Under the pieces are notes generated by a model. It saw nothing but the letters and a program-made list of their open reading frames with translations. It did not search any database and was not told the origin of the DNA. This document shows, in pieces, positions 2,197 through 38,407 of a DNA stretch of 38,890 bases (positions within the stretch are counted from its first letter, which is position 1; the number at the start of each line of letters is the position of its first letter). A program made the position numbers and the translations under genes. The stretch is from a virus, in the IMG/VR virus record IMGVR_UViG_3300011116_000809, positions 1 to 38,890 of that record, one strand, 5' to 3'.

Positions 2197-2547
2197 TCAA
2201 ATGTTTTCATACTTCTTTTTTAATCGTTCATAAGCTTTGCGTTCCCTCTCTTCTTTTTTAAGTTTTGCTTTAAGTTCTTTTTGTTCTTTTTGTACACGAA
2301 GCCTTAGTTCCTCATCAGTTTCAAGACGTGTTTTGTACAGATAGTATTTGCGATACCAACATTTTTCACAATATTCTGTATTCATGTCTTTGGCCTCAAT
2401 GCCTTCCCAACCTTCTTCTTCTATAAGCACAGTTTTAATATATTCAATATAATCTTCTAACGTAAAATCACCATACAAATCAGTACCTAAATACTCCCAC
2501 TGTTCATATTCACGAATTAATTGTTTTTGTTCATTAATCTGATCCAT
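2197..2547 (-). CDS. hypothetical charged coiled-coil protein, 116 aa
   Basis: The product is very rich in Glu, Lys, Arg and Tyr. Residues about 78-113 are a continuous charged helix (KEQKELKAKLKKEERERK and onward) likely to form a coiled coil. A CEKC pair near residue 60 could bind metal with other ligands. I do not recognise a family. The start is ATG 2547, behind a hairpin at 2575-2603. Confidence 0.7.
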   Translation of the reverse strand: MDQINEQKQLIREYEQWEYLGTDLYGDFTLEDYIEYIKTVLIEEEGWEGIEAKDMNTEYCEKCWYRKYYLYKTRLETDEELRLRVQKEQKELKAKLKKEERERKAYERLKKKYENI

Positions 2548-2574: not shown

Positions 2575-2603
2575 CAGACCGTAGCAGAGCAGCGTCAGGT
2601 CTG
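2575..2603 (-). promoter_or_regulatory. leader hairpin before the 116-aa gene
   Basis: CAGACC (2575-2580) pairs with GGTCTG (2598-2603) around a 17-nt loop, about 27 nt upstream of the ATG at 2547. The rest of 2548-2726 holds no convincing gene; it is spacer behind the orphan thyX fragment. Confidence 0.4.
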
Positions 2604-2726
2604 AGGGAGTCAGGGTTTCTGCTGCTTCCCCTGGCTGGAAAGCGAATGACCTTGCAGCTTGATCACTGTGAGGTCACACCCTCCATCAGAAAAAACAAAC
2701 GGCTGTGACCTTCAGCTTTCCACTCA

Positions 2727-2874
2727 TCAACCAGAGGTTTCTGTTTGGAATGCCGCTTCACCAATGATGGGAAGTGTTTTGCAAAAAACATCTTTGATTT
2801 GTTGAGCAATGATGCGATGTTCAAGTTGAGTGCTTTGGTCACAACGAAGTTGTAGATAGTGAATCCACCGGACA
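2727..2874 (-). pseudogene. orphan duplicate of the thyX 3' end
   Basis: In the minus frame ending at TGA 2727-2729 the DNA encodes VRWIHYLQLR, DQSTQLEHRIIA and PIIGEAAF. This mirrors the C-terminus of the intact ThyX upstream (IHYLWVR, DPSTQMEHRQIA, PIISEAAF). By hand alignment about 24 of 39 residues are identical from IHYL to EAAF. No start codon or N-terminal part precedes it. Its first codons overlap the end of the HNH endonuclease gene in another frame. I read it as the displaced original 3' end of thyX, left behind when the endonuclease unit with a replacement 3' end inserted. Confidence 0.8.
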
Positions 2875-3327
2875 ATTATTTAGGTAGTTATTCCATGGTT
2901 CAGGATTTTTAAGATACGCTTCAATACGTCCGAGGTTTGTGTTGCATTTTGCACACAACAAGCCACGAACTACTCCGGTTTCATGACAGTGATCAACTGC
3001 CAACTGTTTGCCTGATTTACAAGTATACTGGCAAATCTTACAAACACCGCCTTGGTCTTGGAGCATTCGTTCATAGTCTTCAACAGTAATTCCATAAGCA
3101 CGTTTAAAGTGTTTTTTTCTATCAGTTATCCAAGTATTTCTATTTGCCCTTCGGCGCTCGTTAATTTTATCCAAGTCTTCTCTTGTTCTCAATGAATGTC
3201 TCACTTTGTTATAAGCATTTACACATTCTCTACACTTATTACTTAAGCGATCTTTTGTATGTGGATGAGGAGAAAAATCTGCAACAATCACATCTTTGTT
3301 GCAATAACGACAATGTTTAGTTTTCAT
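2839..3327 (-). CDS. HNH homing endonuclease, Endonuclease VII type
   Basis: Residues 5-8 (CRYC) and a later CREC form an N-terminal zinc site. YGITVEDYERMLQDQGG, then CKIC, then LAVDHCHETGVVRGLLC and CNTNLG are the hallmark of the recombination endonuclease VII (His-Me finger) family, with the catalytic HCH. The 162-aa length suits free-standing members. I chose ATG 3327 (MKTKHCRYC) over upstream in-frame codons because it overlaps the thyX stop by 11 nt and begins directly at the zinc motif. Its 3' end runs into the orphan thyX fragment. It probably cuts thyX alleles that lack the insertion. Confidence 0.9.
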   Translation of the reverse strand: MKTKHCRYCNKDVIVADFSPHPHTKDRLSNKCRECVNAYNKVRHSLRTREDLDKINERRRANRNTWITDRKKHFKRAYGITVEDYERMLQDQGGVCKICQYTCKSGKQLAVDHCHETGVVRGLLCAKCNTNLGRIEAYLKNPEPWNNYLNNCPVDSLSTTSL

Positions 3328-3979
3328 TTTTAAAAGCGGCTTCACTAATAATTGGAAATTGCTGACAAAAAATCTTTTGGATTTCAAGAGCAATTTGTCG
3401 GTGTTCCATTTGTGTGCTTGGATCAGTCCGTACCCAAAGATAATGAATAAACGACCTGAGAGTGCCGTTCATATAAAGTCTAGTCGGAGTGGAGAGCGGC
3501 AGGATGCTACGTGCGCATTCCTTGGCAACTCCAGTGCTTACCATTTCACGATACAGATGTTCTGCATCTTCATACAACTGAGAGATGCGACGGTAATAAC
3601 CAGTAATCATGTCAGCATCTAAATCATCAATACTGTTTTGCCGATTCTTAGTATCTTGCCTACGCAAATGCGGAATCACACAGGATCCCAACTCATTTAC
3701 ATCTGCATATCTTGTAGAAAATTCTTGAAAGCTGAATGAACGATGTCGCAAGATCTGTGCAGATATTGCACGAGTTGTGTTGATTTCAACACAAATATTA
3801 GCCATCTCATACGGACTCCAGTGGTTATGCGTAATCAAATAACGCAACAACCTTGGAGCTGTATCCATATTATCTTGATTCTTGGGTGCTGAAACACGTG
3901 CCATACGCGTGATCATTTCCTCTGCGTTTGGCGTACACCATACAAGAGAAACATTTGGTAATTCCACAGTGTTTTCCAT
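3317..3979 (-). CDS. thyX: flavin-dependent thymidylate synthase
   Basis: The 220-aa protein carries RHRSFSFQEFSTRYADV (residues about 84-100), the ThyX signature RHRxxSxQExSxRY that binds dUMP and FAD. ThyX converts dUMP to dTMP using methylene-tetrahydrofolate and reduced flavin, supplying thymidine for phage DNA synthesis. Length is normal for the family. The ATG at 3979 shares one base with the upstream gene's TGA. The last 40 or so residues (IHYLWVR to EAAFKNEN) are duplicated in diverged form about 450 nt downstream, beyond an HNH endonuclease gene. The present C-terminus may therefore be an acquired replacement. Confidence 0.96.
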   Translation of the reverse strand: MENTVELPNVSLVWCTPNAEEMITRMARVSAPKNQDNMDTAPRLLRYLITHNHWSPYEMANICVEINTTRAISAQILRHRSFSFQEFSTRYADVNELGSCVIPHLRRQDTKNRQNSIDDLDADMITGYYRRISQLYEDAEHLYREMVSTGVAKECARSILPLSTPTRLYMNGTLRSFIHYLWVRTDPSTQMEHRQIALEIQKIFCQQFPIISEAAFKNEN

Positions 3980-5566: not shown

Positions 5567-5801
5567 TGGCATCCTCCAGCTCGGCGGCGATGGCGAGGAG
5601 GTCGTCGCGAACATCTTCACGGGCATCCCAATCAGCATAGGCAGCGTCATCCGCGTAAAGAGGCATGTCGCGTTCTGGCACCACCTGATCCGCAGCAGCA
5701 CGCAGGGCGGCGGCAATGGGCGATCTGGCGTGGTCGCGAGCAACGGATGCTGCTGAGTCCACTGCCCAAGCGGCGGGGCTCAGTGGGGTGGGGTTAGTCA
5801 T
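5559..5801 (-). CDS. small AAALR-AADQV repeat-domain protein, 80 aa
   Basis: The product is alanine- and aspartate-rich and almost entirely helical. IAAALRAAADQVVPE and LLAIAAELED match the C-terminal domain of the next gene (5177-5566), and the underlying DNA is also visibly similar (shared CACCTGATCCGCAGCAG near 5291 and 5683). It starts MTNPTP at 5801 with an 8-nt overlap with the upstream gene. Function unknown. Confidence 0.65.
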   Translation of the reverse strand: MTNPTPLSPAAWAVDSAASVARDHARSPIAAALRAAADQVVPERDMPLYADDAAYADWDAREDVRDDLLAIAAELEDANG

Positions 5802-6108
5802 TGAGCTGCTCCAGAGCGCGGCGGATTAGTTTTTCTTCAACTGTTGGTCCAAGCATCTTGTCCTCGATCTCGTTTAAAGCGGCAAGCGCCTGCTCCTTCA
5901 AGCTCGGCGGCTTCGGGCGGCGGGCGGCGCGGAGTTTTTCCTCAGGCATGGGATAGTCACCGAAGTACGGGCAATAATTAGCGACCCACTCACAGCACGC
6001 CTCCAGCTCCTGGTCAGCGCCAGCGCGATAGGCAGCCTCAAATGCAAGGCTTCGGGGCATCCCCTCCCACTGCTTGAATAACTCCGGCGATGGGGTGGGG
6101 TTAGTCAT
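5794..6108 (-). CDS. ELEACCEW/ARRPKPPS-family small protein, 104 aa (paralog 1)
   Basis: It shares the block order SPELF..W, GADQELEACCEW, LRAARRPKPPSLKEQAL and IRRALEQLND with the genes at 6101-6478 and 11291-11671. The adjacent cysteines and invariant RRPKPPS suggest a conserved fold, but I know no function. The start MTNPTP at 6108 overlaps the upstream gene by 8 nt, as does its stop with the downstream start. Confidence 0.7.
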   Translation of the reverse strand: MTNPTPSPELFKQWEGMPRSLAFEAAYRAGADQELEACCEWVANYCPYFGDYPMPEEKLRAARRPKPPSLKEQALAALNEIEDKMLGPTVEEKLIRRALEQLND

Positions 6109-6478
6109 TGTTCTCCAGCTCCTGCAGGCGCTCCAGGGCGCGGCGAATGGCGGCAAACCGTTTGACTTTGTTAGGGCCTGTTACCGGCATGAGTAGAATC
6201 ACGGTTCGCTCTAACTCCTGTAACGCCTCCTCCGCCAAGCTCGGGGGCTTCGGGCGGCGGGCCTTGCGGAGCGACGGGATGAGTTCGACGTGAGTCGTCA
6301 ACTTCCACTGGTGCTGTAGCCATTCACAGCACGCCTCCAGCTCCCGGTCGGCGCCCCATCGGGCGGCTTGGGTGACGAGGTGCCAGGAGTAAGACAACGG
6401 AGCGTCACCTGGAGCGGTATTTCTCCATAAATCAAACAGCTCAGGCGATGGAATGATGGGGTGTTGTTGGTCAGTCAT
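6101..6478 (-). CDS. ELEACCEW/ARRPKPPS-family small protein, 125 aa (paralog 2)
   Basis: Same block architecture as the neighbour: IPSPELFDLW, AARWGADRELEACCEWL, LRKARRPKPPSLAEEAL and IRRALERL. The middle of the protein is longer than in paralog 1. The start at 6478 overlaps the upstream stop as ATGA, so it is translationally coupled to the polyglutamine-tailed gene. Role unknown. Confidence 0.7.
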   Translation of the reverse strand: MTDQQHPIIPSPELFDLWRNTAPGDAPLSYSWHLVTQAARWGADRELEACCEWLQHQWKLTTHVELIPSLRKARRPKPPSLAEEALQELERTVILLMPVTGPNKVKRFAAIRRALERLQELENND

Positions 6479-35431: not shown

Positions 35432-38407
35432 GTGTTCATTGATAGCTAGTTCAGATCCTGGTAGGTGTTTCCTTTTAGGATTTGGTAAATGGCTCCGTGA
35501 TTGCAGTTAAACTTTTCAGCAATCTTTCGATACGAAAGCCCAGCTTCTTTTAAAGCTTTTATCTGCATCACATCATCAGAAGAAAACTTTCTCAAAGATT
35601 TCTTCGCCTTTCCTTTACTGGCAAAACCATTGTTCTTGTAGCAACCCGTCTGCCAGGCTCTTGTTAAGTTTTCTTGTTTGGTAACGATCTCAAGATTTTC
35701 AACTCGGTTATTCCTTTTGTTGTTATCTTTGTGATCTACTTGAAGGGAGAAGTTACTGGTTCCATGTGAATTCAGGTCTAGTCCCAAATAAGCAACTGCC
35801 ATCAAGACATGAAGATGAAAACGTTTTCTTCTTCCATTAACAAGAACTGAAATACGGTCATAAACACTGGTTGAGCTGATTGGAATTTCCCGAAAATATT
35901 CTTGATCGTCGGGGTCAAGTTGTTTTTCAAAGGCTTTTCCTTCTACCGTCAAGTAAAGGTTACCAAAACCAGGGACAAGATTTGGTTCCATGTTGTTCAT
36001 AAACAGGTTTCCAAAGCATAACACACCTCAACTGAACGCTCAACGTTGTCACCTCATCAAGTAATTGATGAGTGCAAACCGGATGAATTCAGGGAAGCCC
36101 TAACGTAAAGACGAGGGTAATCCTGAGCCAAGCCAATCAAGTCGTGATTGGAAGGTGCAGAGACTACTGGGTGTAACACGATCTTGTTACGTAATACCAG
36201 ATTTAGCGTCCGGCATCCCACAGGGATGAAGAGATAGTCCACCCCTCTAAGAAACTAGAGACCAGGAGAACGATTTTCCAAAAATCTTAGGTGCCGAACT
36301 CTATCGGCCTCACCCTGCTTATATTGCCGAAATGGCTGTCGAGCCAGTGGTCGTGCATGACTTTACTCGCCAGCCTGGTCAAACCGTTCAGTTAGACCGC
36401 TATAAGTTCTGGGGTACCCCTGGTACCAAGGACAGCCGTGAGCGTATTGCTGATCAAACGATTGGTACCGCTAACAGCCGGAACATTACAAAAGAAAAAG
36501 TTCTGGTTGTTCTTAAAGAGTTGACATCCGTCATCACCAGCTTTTTTACTGGTGCTCCGGTAAGCTCCTTCGCGGCGTAATCCGCGTCGAAAACGGGGTG
36601 AATTGCTGGAAACCCACCAACCAGTATCTCAAGAGCTATACTGGTCGGGCAATCAGCAGCCAAGCTACTTAGTAATAAGTAGAAGGTTCAACGACTAACG
36701 CTGTCGACCCCATGACGAACCTTGAAAGCCAAAGATTTTTGATTGGATGCTCTCTTGGTGATGGGTGTCTTTCCAAAGCAAAGCGTAATGGATCGATAAC
36801 TCTTCATATACAACGAAAGGGCGCACACCAACCTTACGCCGCATGGCAGCTTTCCAGGCTGAATAACATCCTTGGAACAAAAGCAACACTCAGGACGTTT
36901 CTTGACAAAGGAAAATATCCTGCCGTAAGGTTTGGCGTAACCAACAAAAAGATACTGACCCCTGTTTACAATCTTCTTTATCCTTTTGATAAAAAGATTT
37001 TTTCAACTGAAGTTCTTCAAGAACTTCAGTTACCAGAGTTAGCTTTATTCTGGATGGACGATGGTTCACTTGAAGTTCGCAAACGCAAAAAACCAAGTGG
37101 ATCCGAAAAGATTGAGCGGTCAGCTTGGCTAGCTGTTTGTGAAGATGAGCCCACAACCGATTTAGTTGGTCAGTGGATTGAATCTTTGACACAGGCAAAA
37201 TACACTAAAGTTCGTCATGTTTCAGGTAAGTATTATTTAAGGTGGCACTCCGCACAGTGCCGTAATCTTACGCAAAAGATTAAACCTTATATTCTTCCCT
37301 GTCTTGGATACAAAGTCGACCTCAACAGAACTGGAAATGTTTCAGATTGGTTGAGCGAGTCCTACTTCTGATATTGAAAAGGACGATAAGGCGACACGAG
37401 TGCCCCGCACCCGAATCAATGAAATTGAAGGGTGATGATATAGTCTGAACTACATCAATGGTAAAGATGTAGAACCAAAAGATAAAGAACTTTTGGGATA
37501 ACAGCTTGATACCGGCCCTGCAGATCCGGGCGATCCGACTCAGCCCAGCACATTCAAGATTGCTCGCGAAACTCTGGTTACTGCTCAGCGCCTGCTGCTG
37601 GACACTGGTAACCTGAATATGTTCCACCAGTCGATCGGTAGCTTGACGCTGCTTGACGACTATCGCCGGTGGCGCGACCGTGTGTTTATTGACGAGCTGG
37701 CCAAAGCTGAAGCCAACGGTGCTGCGTCTACCACCCAAGGTGGTTACTTCTTCGCTGGTGCCAAGACCAAAGACTCCTCTGGCCGTATCTCTTACACTGG
37801 CACTGAGTATACTGCTGATCTCCAGCAGTTCTCTGTTCGCACTGACCTGCTGACTGTTGTCAAGGATCTGCGCAAGCGTAACGTTCCGACCTATGCCGAT
37901 GGTCTGTATCGTTGCATCTGCGATCCTACTTTCATGATGCACCTGCGTCGTGATCCTGACTTCCGTGAGATTGCTCGCTACGCTGGTAACCCCGGCCAAG
38001 GCATGTACATGGGTAACCCCATGCTGCCTAACAACGCTAGCTTCTTCCAGGGTCCCCAGGCCGGCCAAGCTTACTTCCTGGCTGGCGAACCTGTGATGCC
38101 TACTGGCGTCCAGTTTGAAGGTGTGAAGTTCTTCGAGTCGACCAACTTCCCGACTAAGAGCATCACCACTTCGTTTGACGGTGGTTCTACATATGCTTCC
38201 AAGGAAGTTGCCCAGGGTTACTTCTTTGGTCCTCAGGCAATCGGCGTGGGTATCGGTGGTCCGAACGCTCAGGTGCTCATCAACAACAACGATGACTTCA
38301 GCCGTTTTATCATCCTGATTTGGCAACTGTACGCTGGTTTTGAAATCCTGAATAAGGATTTTGTTACCACTGCGTTCAGCTATGTTCAAGATGACGGCAA
38401 CGTCTGA
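35432..38407 (+). CDS. major capsid protein, split by two group I introns
   Basis: Exons 35432-35440, 36269-36521 and 37509-38407 join to 1161 nt, exactly 386 codons plus stop. GGAGG precedes the GTG start. The joined protein reads MFINDFPKILGAELYRPHP, then QTVQLDRYKFWGTPGT in exon 2. The exon 2/3 junction gives KEYTGPADPGDP. Exon 3 carries LLTVVKDLRKRNVPTYADG and FEGVKFFESTN, resembling N4-gp56-type capsid proteins with the HK97 fold (by eye). It builds the icosahedral shell. Intron ends obey the exon-T and intron-G rules. Exon 1 is only nine bases; an alternative junction four bases further on also keeps the frame. Confidence 0.85.
35441..36268 (+). ncRNA. group I intron 1 of the capsid gene
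   Basis: Core elements in order: P3 CCGGATG (36079), P element AATTCAGGGAAGCCC (36086), Q AATCCTGAGCC (36119), R GGTGCAGAGACTA (36154), P3' CGTCCGG (36207), P8 CATCCC/GGGATG, S AAGAGATAGTCC (36229). P4 pairs TTCAGG with CCTGAG and P7 pairs GACTA with TAGTC. An extra hairpin between R and P3' is typical of subgroup IA phage introns. It carries an antisense HNH gene near its 5' end. The 5' guide-sequence pairing was not resolved. Confidence 0.85.
35446..36000 (-). CDS. HNH homing endonuclease, antisense within intron 1
   Basis: 184 aa from ATG 36000 (other starts at 35991 and a GTG at 36024). SLQVDHKDNNKRNNRVENLEIV is the HNH catalytic region, with a NUMOD4-like N-terminal segment (YFREIPISSTSVYDRISVLVNG). 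The C-terminal SSDDVMQIKALKEAGLSYRKIAEKF segment, followed by HGAIYQILKG, is a helix-turn-helix for target binding. It would spread the intron by cutting intronless capsid genes. The gene points opposite to the intron and capsid gene, which is unusual, and stops five bases inside the intron. Confidence 0.88.
   Translation of the reverse strand: MNNMEPNLVPGFGNLYLTVEGKAFEKQLDPDDQEYFREIPISSTSVYDRISVLVNGRRKRFHLHVLMAVAYLGLDLNSHGTSNFSLQVDHKDNNKRNNRVENLEIVTKQENLTRAWQTGCYKNNGFASKGKAKKSLRKFSSDDVMQIKALKEAGLSYRKIAEKFNCNHGAIYQILKGNTYQDLN
36522..37508 (+). ncRNA. group I intron 2 of the capsid gene
   Basis: The exon ends AAAGAGT; the intron ends ACAGCTTG. GCTC (36564-36567) can pair with the exon end as guide, with a U-G at the splice site. 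P element AATTGCTGGAAACCC (36601), Q AATCAGCAGCC (36651), R GTTCAACGACTAA (36686), S GATGATATAGTCTGA (37433). P7 is GACTA/TAGTC, and P3 is GGGGT/ACCCC. The LAGLIDADG gene sits in the P8 loop between R and S. It lacks the extra R-P3' hairpin of intron 1, so the two introns have different origins. Confidence 0.9.
36712..37371 (+). CDS. LAGLIDADG homing endonuclease in intron 2
   Basis: 219 aa. The first motif FLIGCSLGDGCL lies at about residues 9-20 and the second, ELALFWMDDGSL, at about 108-119. These supply the two catalytic Asp residues of a single-chain enzyme. It begins right after the P3' strand of the intron core and ends before the S element. It probably recognises the joined exon 2-exon 3 site in intronless capsid genes; some relatives also assist splicing. 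Confidence 0.92.
   Translation: MTNLESQRFLIGCSLGDGCLSKAKRNGSITLHIQRKGAHQPYAAWQLSRLNNILGTKATLRTFLDKGKYPAVRFGVTNKKILTPVYNLLYPFDKKIFSTEVLQELQLPELALFWMDDGSLEVRKRKKPSGSEKIERSAWLAVCEDEPTTDLVGQWIESLTQAKYTKVRHVSGKYYLRWHSAQCRNLTQKIKPYILPCLGYKVDLNRTGNVSDWLSESYF

Follow-up and report, generated by a model that had tools for sequence, protein, structure and literature searches.

How does an intact thyX gene come to be followed by a nuclease gene and then by a second thyX 3' end that belongs to no complete gene? This question is raised by the window, i.e. the whole stretch of 38,890 nt of IMGVR_UViG_3300011116_000809, a metagenomic virus record from IMG/VR whose source virus is cyanophage-like. On the minus strand the order is hybrid thyX (3982-3317), Endonuclease VII-type nuclease gene (3327-2839) and orphan thyX end (2867-2727). 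The first-pass annotation had described a thyX with a replaced 3' end, an HNH endonuclease and an orphan second ThyX C-terminus, and this description held. The parts are as follows:

3982/3979 to 3317, minus strand: hybrid thyX, intact, 221 aa, consisting of the resident body and an imported 3' end (Pfam Thy1, 7e-44)
3317 to 3451, minus strand: tail A, the imported thyX 3' end, from the Phe codon that replaces a conserved Trp to the stop
2839 to 3327, minus strand: Endonuclease VII-type (DHHRN) nuclease gene, 162 aa (Pfam PF02945, 3.4e-22)
3451 to 2868, minus strand: the inserted unit, tail A plus nuclease, 584 bp
2727 to 2867, minus strand: tail B, the orphan native thyX 3' end, from the Trp codon TGG (tblastn)
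2575 to 2726, minus strand: native sequence 3' of thyX (RLFF end, intergenic), continuous with tail B (blastn to the related loci L008, L009 and L253)

The hybrid gene encodes a full-length ThyX, the flavin-dependent thymidylate synthase, with a Thy1 domain, which matches the ThyX structures 2cfa/4fzb in the PDB at 4e-56 over residues 18-215, tail included. The nuclease gene starts with the ATG at 3327, so that its overlap with the thyX stop is exactly 11 nt, as had been annotated. In a blind tblastn search of the record with its own ThyX, tail B was the sole second match (2870-2739, 57%, E 2e-12). Its reading frame is open to its own stop, and the upstream stop is not followed by a usual start codon in this frame. 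Tails A and B are identical at 24 of 39 residues, the figure estimated earlier. The annotation had named 2875-3440 as the stretch that splicing would have to remove; the bounds of the insert were refined to 2868-3451, the homology of the orphan starting at the TGG codon at 2867. The body ends with ...AGG TCG and tail B resumes with TGG ATT CAC; when the flanks are joined, they read ...TLRS-WIHYLQLR in frame. The nuclease frame enters tail B out of frame (...NN-CPVDSLSTTSL, then the stop), and thus its last codons and its stop derive from the remnant of the host gene.

Two other features were seen in the surroundings. Between the region downstream of thyX and the GP88-type gene there is a charged ORF of 116 aa (2197-2547, minus strand), inserted relative to L008/L009, with only a very weak match to a PHROG of unknown function. 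Small paralogous genes of the MTDQQHPIIPSPELF type, whose function is unknown, recur in arrays near thyX in the window (5794-6478, minus strand), in L083 (3711-3947), in L003 and in L041.

The uninterrupted near relatives, at least 11 in number, have a single tail and read RSWIHYL without exception. The Trp at the target column is present in 183 of the 193 distinct ThyX compared. From TGG onward the window is collinear with the thyX end and the following region of L008 (73% over 290 nt, blastn). Its intergenic part matches L009 (88% over 125 nt) and L253 (94% over 109 nt), and the collinearity with these kin runs on to the GP88-type gene. Since the window from tail B onward is thus collinear with what follows an intact thyX in L008/L253, tail B is the native end. 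The body of the window ThyX shows 79-87% amino acid identity to its kin, whereas tail A shares only 24-29 of 39 residues with tails of the same kin and its identity to them is only about 60-71%. Trees of the window tails alone rest on 117 nt, which is too short to be decisive, and other placements were not rejected (AU 0.13-0.35). One further close ThyX (L258/L379) is truncated by its contig end just before the target codon.

The same order was found in a second record, IMGVR_UViG_3300045740_000123 (L083, 85 kb). Its ThyX reads RSYIHYL, and there is a 4-nt overlap between the thyX stop and its nuclease, which is 77% identical to that of the window. The nuclease is separated from the orphan tail by three small genes, and with them the insert comprises 1352 bp as against 584 bp in the window; homologues of one of them (77 aa) immediately follow thyX in L042/L046. 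The orphan tail begins at the same Trp codon as in the window, here mutated to TGA. With the uninterrupted sister L251, the body of L083 is 92% identical at the amino acid and 84% at the nucleotide level. The orphan tail matches the L251 tail at 36/39 aa and 90% nt, whereas the functional tail matches it at only 29/39 aa and 63% nt. In the tree the orphan tail groups with L251 (support 97/91), and a grouping of the functional tail with L251 was rejected (AU p = 5e-5). From the orphan tail onward L083 is collinear with the region after thyX in L251/L004/L005. Between the window and L083, a continuous stretch of homology, 1027 nt at 75%, spans body, tail A and nuclease and ends 11 nt before TGG; the two tails A share 34 of 39 residues.

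The first-pass annotation had proposed that a unit of new 3' end and endonuclease landed in thyX and displaced the original tail, and the sequences of the relatives support this. It had expected uninterrupted relatives to join the N-terminal part to a RWIHYLQLR-type tail, which all close ones do in the form RSWIHYL, and a tree to separate the two tails, which held in L083. Relatives with both tails and no endonuclease would have refuted it; among 292 ThyX loci there were none.

The nuclease of the window belongs to the Endonuclease VII group (PHROG endonuclease VII, 6.7e-32; Hpy99I/Endonuclease VII structures, 5e-5). The DHHRN motif (CxxC ... DHxH ... R ... CxxC-N) is complete, with D112, H113, H115, R121 and N129 as catalytic residues and C96/C99 and C125/C128 as the CxxC pairs. 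No cleavage assay was done, and site-specific cleavage and homing activity are inferred from sequence alone. A search of IMG/VR with nuclease profiles yielded only three close nucleases, every one of them behind thyX, and in all three carriers the nuclease frame overlaps the thyX stop (by 4-14 nt). The third carrier, L164, belongs to another phage family. Its thyX (RSFLHY) overlaps a 54% identical nuclease by 14 nt; there is no orphan tail, and a TerS-like gene follows downstream. This pair without an orphan is what a donor would look like. In L084-L086 a 44% identical nuclease lies about 65 nt after thyX. The same profiles found no further members in GTDB genomes, and GenBank phages contained neither a close nuclease nor, at E 0.01, a record with two ThyX tails.

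In addition, 107 nuclease loci were screened for a tail of the upstream gene repeated downstream. The window and L083 stood out, and no clear comparable case behind another gene was found. The few other matches (L105, L107, L134, L333) seem to be paralogues among structural genes, or hits to the nuclease itself. L333 (1933-3997) has a tail-fibre-like C-terminal region in two diverged copies with an Endonuclease VII-type gene between them; this may reflect an end exchange of similar kind that affected a structural gene, or the copies may merely be paralogues.

Taken by themselves, the sequences place the unit at the conserved codon of RS|WIHY and demonstrate that thyX is whole with an imported end and that the recipient's own end is stranded behind. 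The likely explanation is that a variant thyX 3' end and an overlapping Endonuclease VII-type gene form a unit which homes by 3'-end replacement, where cleavage and homing are inferences. The closest mechanistic parallel are the WHO elements at FBA1 of Torulaspora/Lachancea yeasts (Coughlan et al. 2020, PMC7282813). These consist of an endonuclease and an upstream 3' end of the target gene that confers resistance; with each homing event the 3' end is replaced, the gene is left whole and the old end becomes a fragment further downstream. The target gene resists through allelic differences in sequence and not through interruption (PMC7282813). The window unit shares with them the endonuclease, the replaced 3' end, the whole gene and the old end downstream. 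The order of foreign 3' end on an intact target gene, nuclease and native end is met in the window and in L083, as are uninterrupted alleles with a matching native end in relatives (L251 for L083; for the window, collinearity with L008/L253). However, WHO elements encode LAGLIDADG nucleases related to inteins and HO, reside in a nuclear eukaryotic gene of organisms with a sexual cycle and form clusters of several fragments, whereas the window and L083 have an unrelated Endonuclease VII-type nuclease in a phage thyX, gene overlaps of 4-14 nt and one fragment. Membership in the WHO family proper, which has an HO/VDE-related LAGLIDADG nuclease, is therefore not met, and the phage unit is not WHO by descent.

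The mobile ORFs of fungal mitochondria have a similar layout; they are known from atp6 of Allomyces and from atp6, atp9, cox2 and nad3 of Glomus/Rhizophagus (Beaudet et al. 2013, PMC3630166). The likeness to Allomyces atp6 had been pointed out in the annotation and is apt. In these genes, too, a foreign C-terminus in phase is followed by an endonuclease ORF and then by the native C-terminus, and the native end matches a close relative while the foreign end does not. They differ in that the atp6 case has a LAGLIDADG nuclease, that they reside in an organelle and that their transcripts were tested (PMC3630166).

With respect to the nuclease, F-CphI of cyanophage S-PM2 is a proven homing endonuclease of the DHHRN/Endonuclease VII type (PMC6083498). 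It has the same catalytic motif as the window nuclease and likewise comes from a phage of cyanobacteria. F-CphI cuts an uninterrupted neighbour gene, which is the likeness inferred for the window nuclease (PMC6083498). F-CphI relies for self-protection on a group I intron in psbA (collaborative homing), whereas the window unit apparently relies on the exchanged coding end. Free-standing homing endonucleases and split genes of T4-type systems (SegF/SegG; MobE in nrdA of Aeh1; PMC2988022) are alike in the phage endonuclease, in the co-conversion of flanks and in the insertion inside an essential gene of nucleotide metabolism. Yet MobE and MobA split their gene into two proteins, whereas thyX of the window stays one piece with a replaced end.

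Of the rival explanations, ordinary mosaic recombination with the nuclease as a passenger without targeting role survives best, although we regard it as unlikely. In its favor, phage genomes are mosaic, and Phe at the Trp codon also occurs without the nuclease (L171, L191). Against it, two lineages carry tail A and nuclease as a unit at one and the same codon, with a right-hand extent that differs between them, members of the close nuclease family are found solely behind thyX (3/3), and among the 107 nuclease loci screened no gene other than thyX provided a clear counterpart.

It is very unlikely that the 584 bp are an intron and that the functional ThyX is spliced to the orphan tail. Excision of the insert would restore the ancestral frame exactly, the orphan tail is still open and looks constrained, and a group I intron is present elsewhere in the window genome. 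However, neither the insert of the window nor that of L083 gave an Rfam intron match at gathering or permissive thresholds, even at E 5, whereas the real group I intron of the window genome scores 92 bits. The window insert is almost wholly coding (tail A and nuclease), so that a separate ribozyme core could not be accommodated; the orphan tail of L083 opens with TGA, and splicing there would thus truncate ThyX; and tail A is under strong constraint at the protein level. Membership in group I or group II introns, i.e. a ribozyme core in the insert, is not met in either phage. An intein was set aside because the thyX frame ends in a stop and the nuclease lies in another frame. The annotation had spoken of homing without an intron or intein; that the nuclease cuts at this site and that no splicing occurs are inferences from sequence alone.

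Equally improbable is a tandem duplication of the thyX 3' end with later landing of the nuclease between the copies. A point in favor is that L219 has a near-identical tandem thyX end without a nuclease. Against this, copies made in place should be nearest kin, whereas the tails pair across phages (34/39 between the tails A) and each orphan matches its own lineage (L083 orphan to L251 36/39, to its own tail A 28/39). Moreover, nuclease frame and thyX stop overlap in each of the three close carriers, and both diverged tails without nuclease occurred in 0 of 292 ThyX loci. The duplicate in L219 (3505-3618 and 3922-4035; same contig as L256) is recent and lies at the contig end, its copies separated by an unrelated ORF of about 90 aa. 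An assembly artefact, conceivable in a metagenomic virus record, is all but excluded, since L083, an independent contig of 75% identity from a different sample, has the same architecture.

Homing by 3'-end replacement could proceed as follows. The nuclease would cut an uninterrupted thyX at or beside TGG in RSWIHY. Homologous copying from the donor would then repair the break on its 5' side and bring in the donor 3' end and the nuclease gene. This donor end would carry Phe or Tyr for Trp and hence probably be uncuttable. The other side of the break would be joined behind the nuclease by end joining; in T4, intron homing with homology on one side only has been shown to use such illegitimate joining (Parker et al. 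1999, summarised in PMC2988022). Alternatively, the right side may arise by recombination with an existing orphan fragment, as in WHO elements. Function of thyX would be kept without intron or intein splicing. All three carriers of a close nuclease have F or Y at the Trp column, which fits self-protection, but Phe also stands there in L171 and L191, which lack the nuclease.

Whether the window and L083 acquired the unit once or twice was also considered. The break codon is identical in both, and the right-hand donor junctions differ: in the window the junction lies inside the last codons of the nuclease, in L083 about 760 bp past the nuclease stop. In body trees the window groups with L003/L008/L009/L011/L253 and L083 stands apart from that group; a common body clade of both had an AU p of 0.005 in one sampling and 0.065 in another. 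Among informative sites, those shared solely by the window and L083 are 10 of 16 in the part that begins about 6 nt ahead of the Trp codon, as against 4 of 32 upstream (Fisher p 6e-4, with site classes defined after the fact). Two acquisitions thus appear likely, with the reservation that the body-clade tests vary with sampling. The pN/pS of tail A is 0.11, i.e. strong constraint, and that of the orphan tails is 0.22-0.35, like functional tails; these values are rough, as synonymous sites are near saturation. Constraint at the protein level is still visible in the orphans, so their stranding is recent and postdates the divergence of the two lineages. The window and L083 differ about as much in the nuclease as in the body, and therefore a recent direct exchange between the two is not shown.

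Apart from thyX, the window genome probably has a second homing hot spot in the head-gene region (36001-36261, 36712-37371 and 37619-38407, plus strand; 35446-36024, minus strand), as far as can be inferred from its sequence. Here the group I intron (92 bits in Rfam) lies close to the gene for the major head protein, a LAGLIDADG homing endonuclease is encoded within the head gene region, and a further HNH-looking ORF is on the other strand.

A bolder reading, towards which we lean without being able to insist on it, is that the unit is the phage counterpart of WHO: a self-protecting, translationally coupled module of resistant 3' end and Endonuclease VII-type nuclease. Such a module would invade thyX time and again, in different phage families, and the end of this essential enzyme would be exchanged on each occasion. 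Only two examples of the stranded-end layout were present in the collections searched. If true, homing by 3'-end replacement would have arisen independently for a third time, and for the first time in phages as far as could be checked, and the module would drive the exchange of thyX tails. So far the trick has been described chiefly in fungi, and the literature searched contained no published phage example of the layout; most subscription journals were outside its scope, and priority is unproven.

The phage case means that neither an intron or intein nor a split gene is needed for a selfish nuclease to persist within an essential gene; a spare, presumably uncuttable gene end serves instead. 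The layout is now seen in fungal mitochondria, yeast nuclei and phages with unrelated nucleases, which points to a general, convergent solution. Phages offer a tractable system for testing the repair route, i.e. one-sided end joining or fragment-assisted recombination, and the differing right-hand junctions of the window and L083 are natural evidence on this route.
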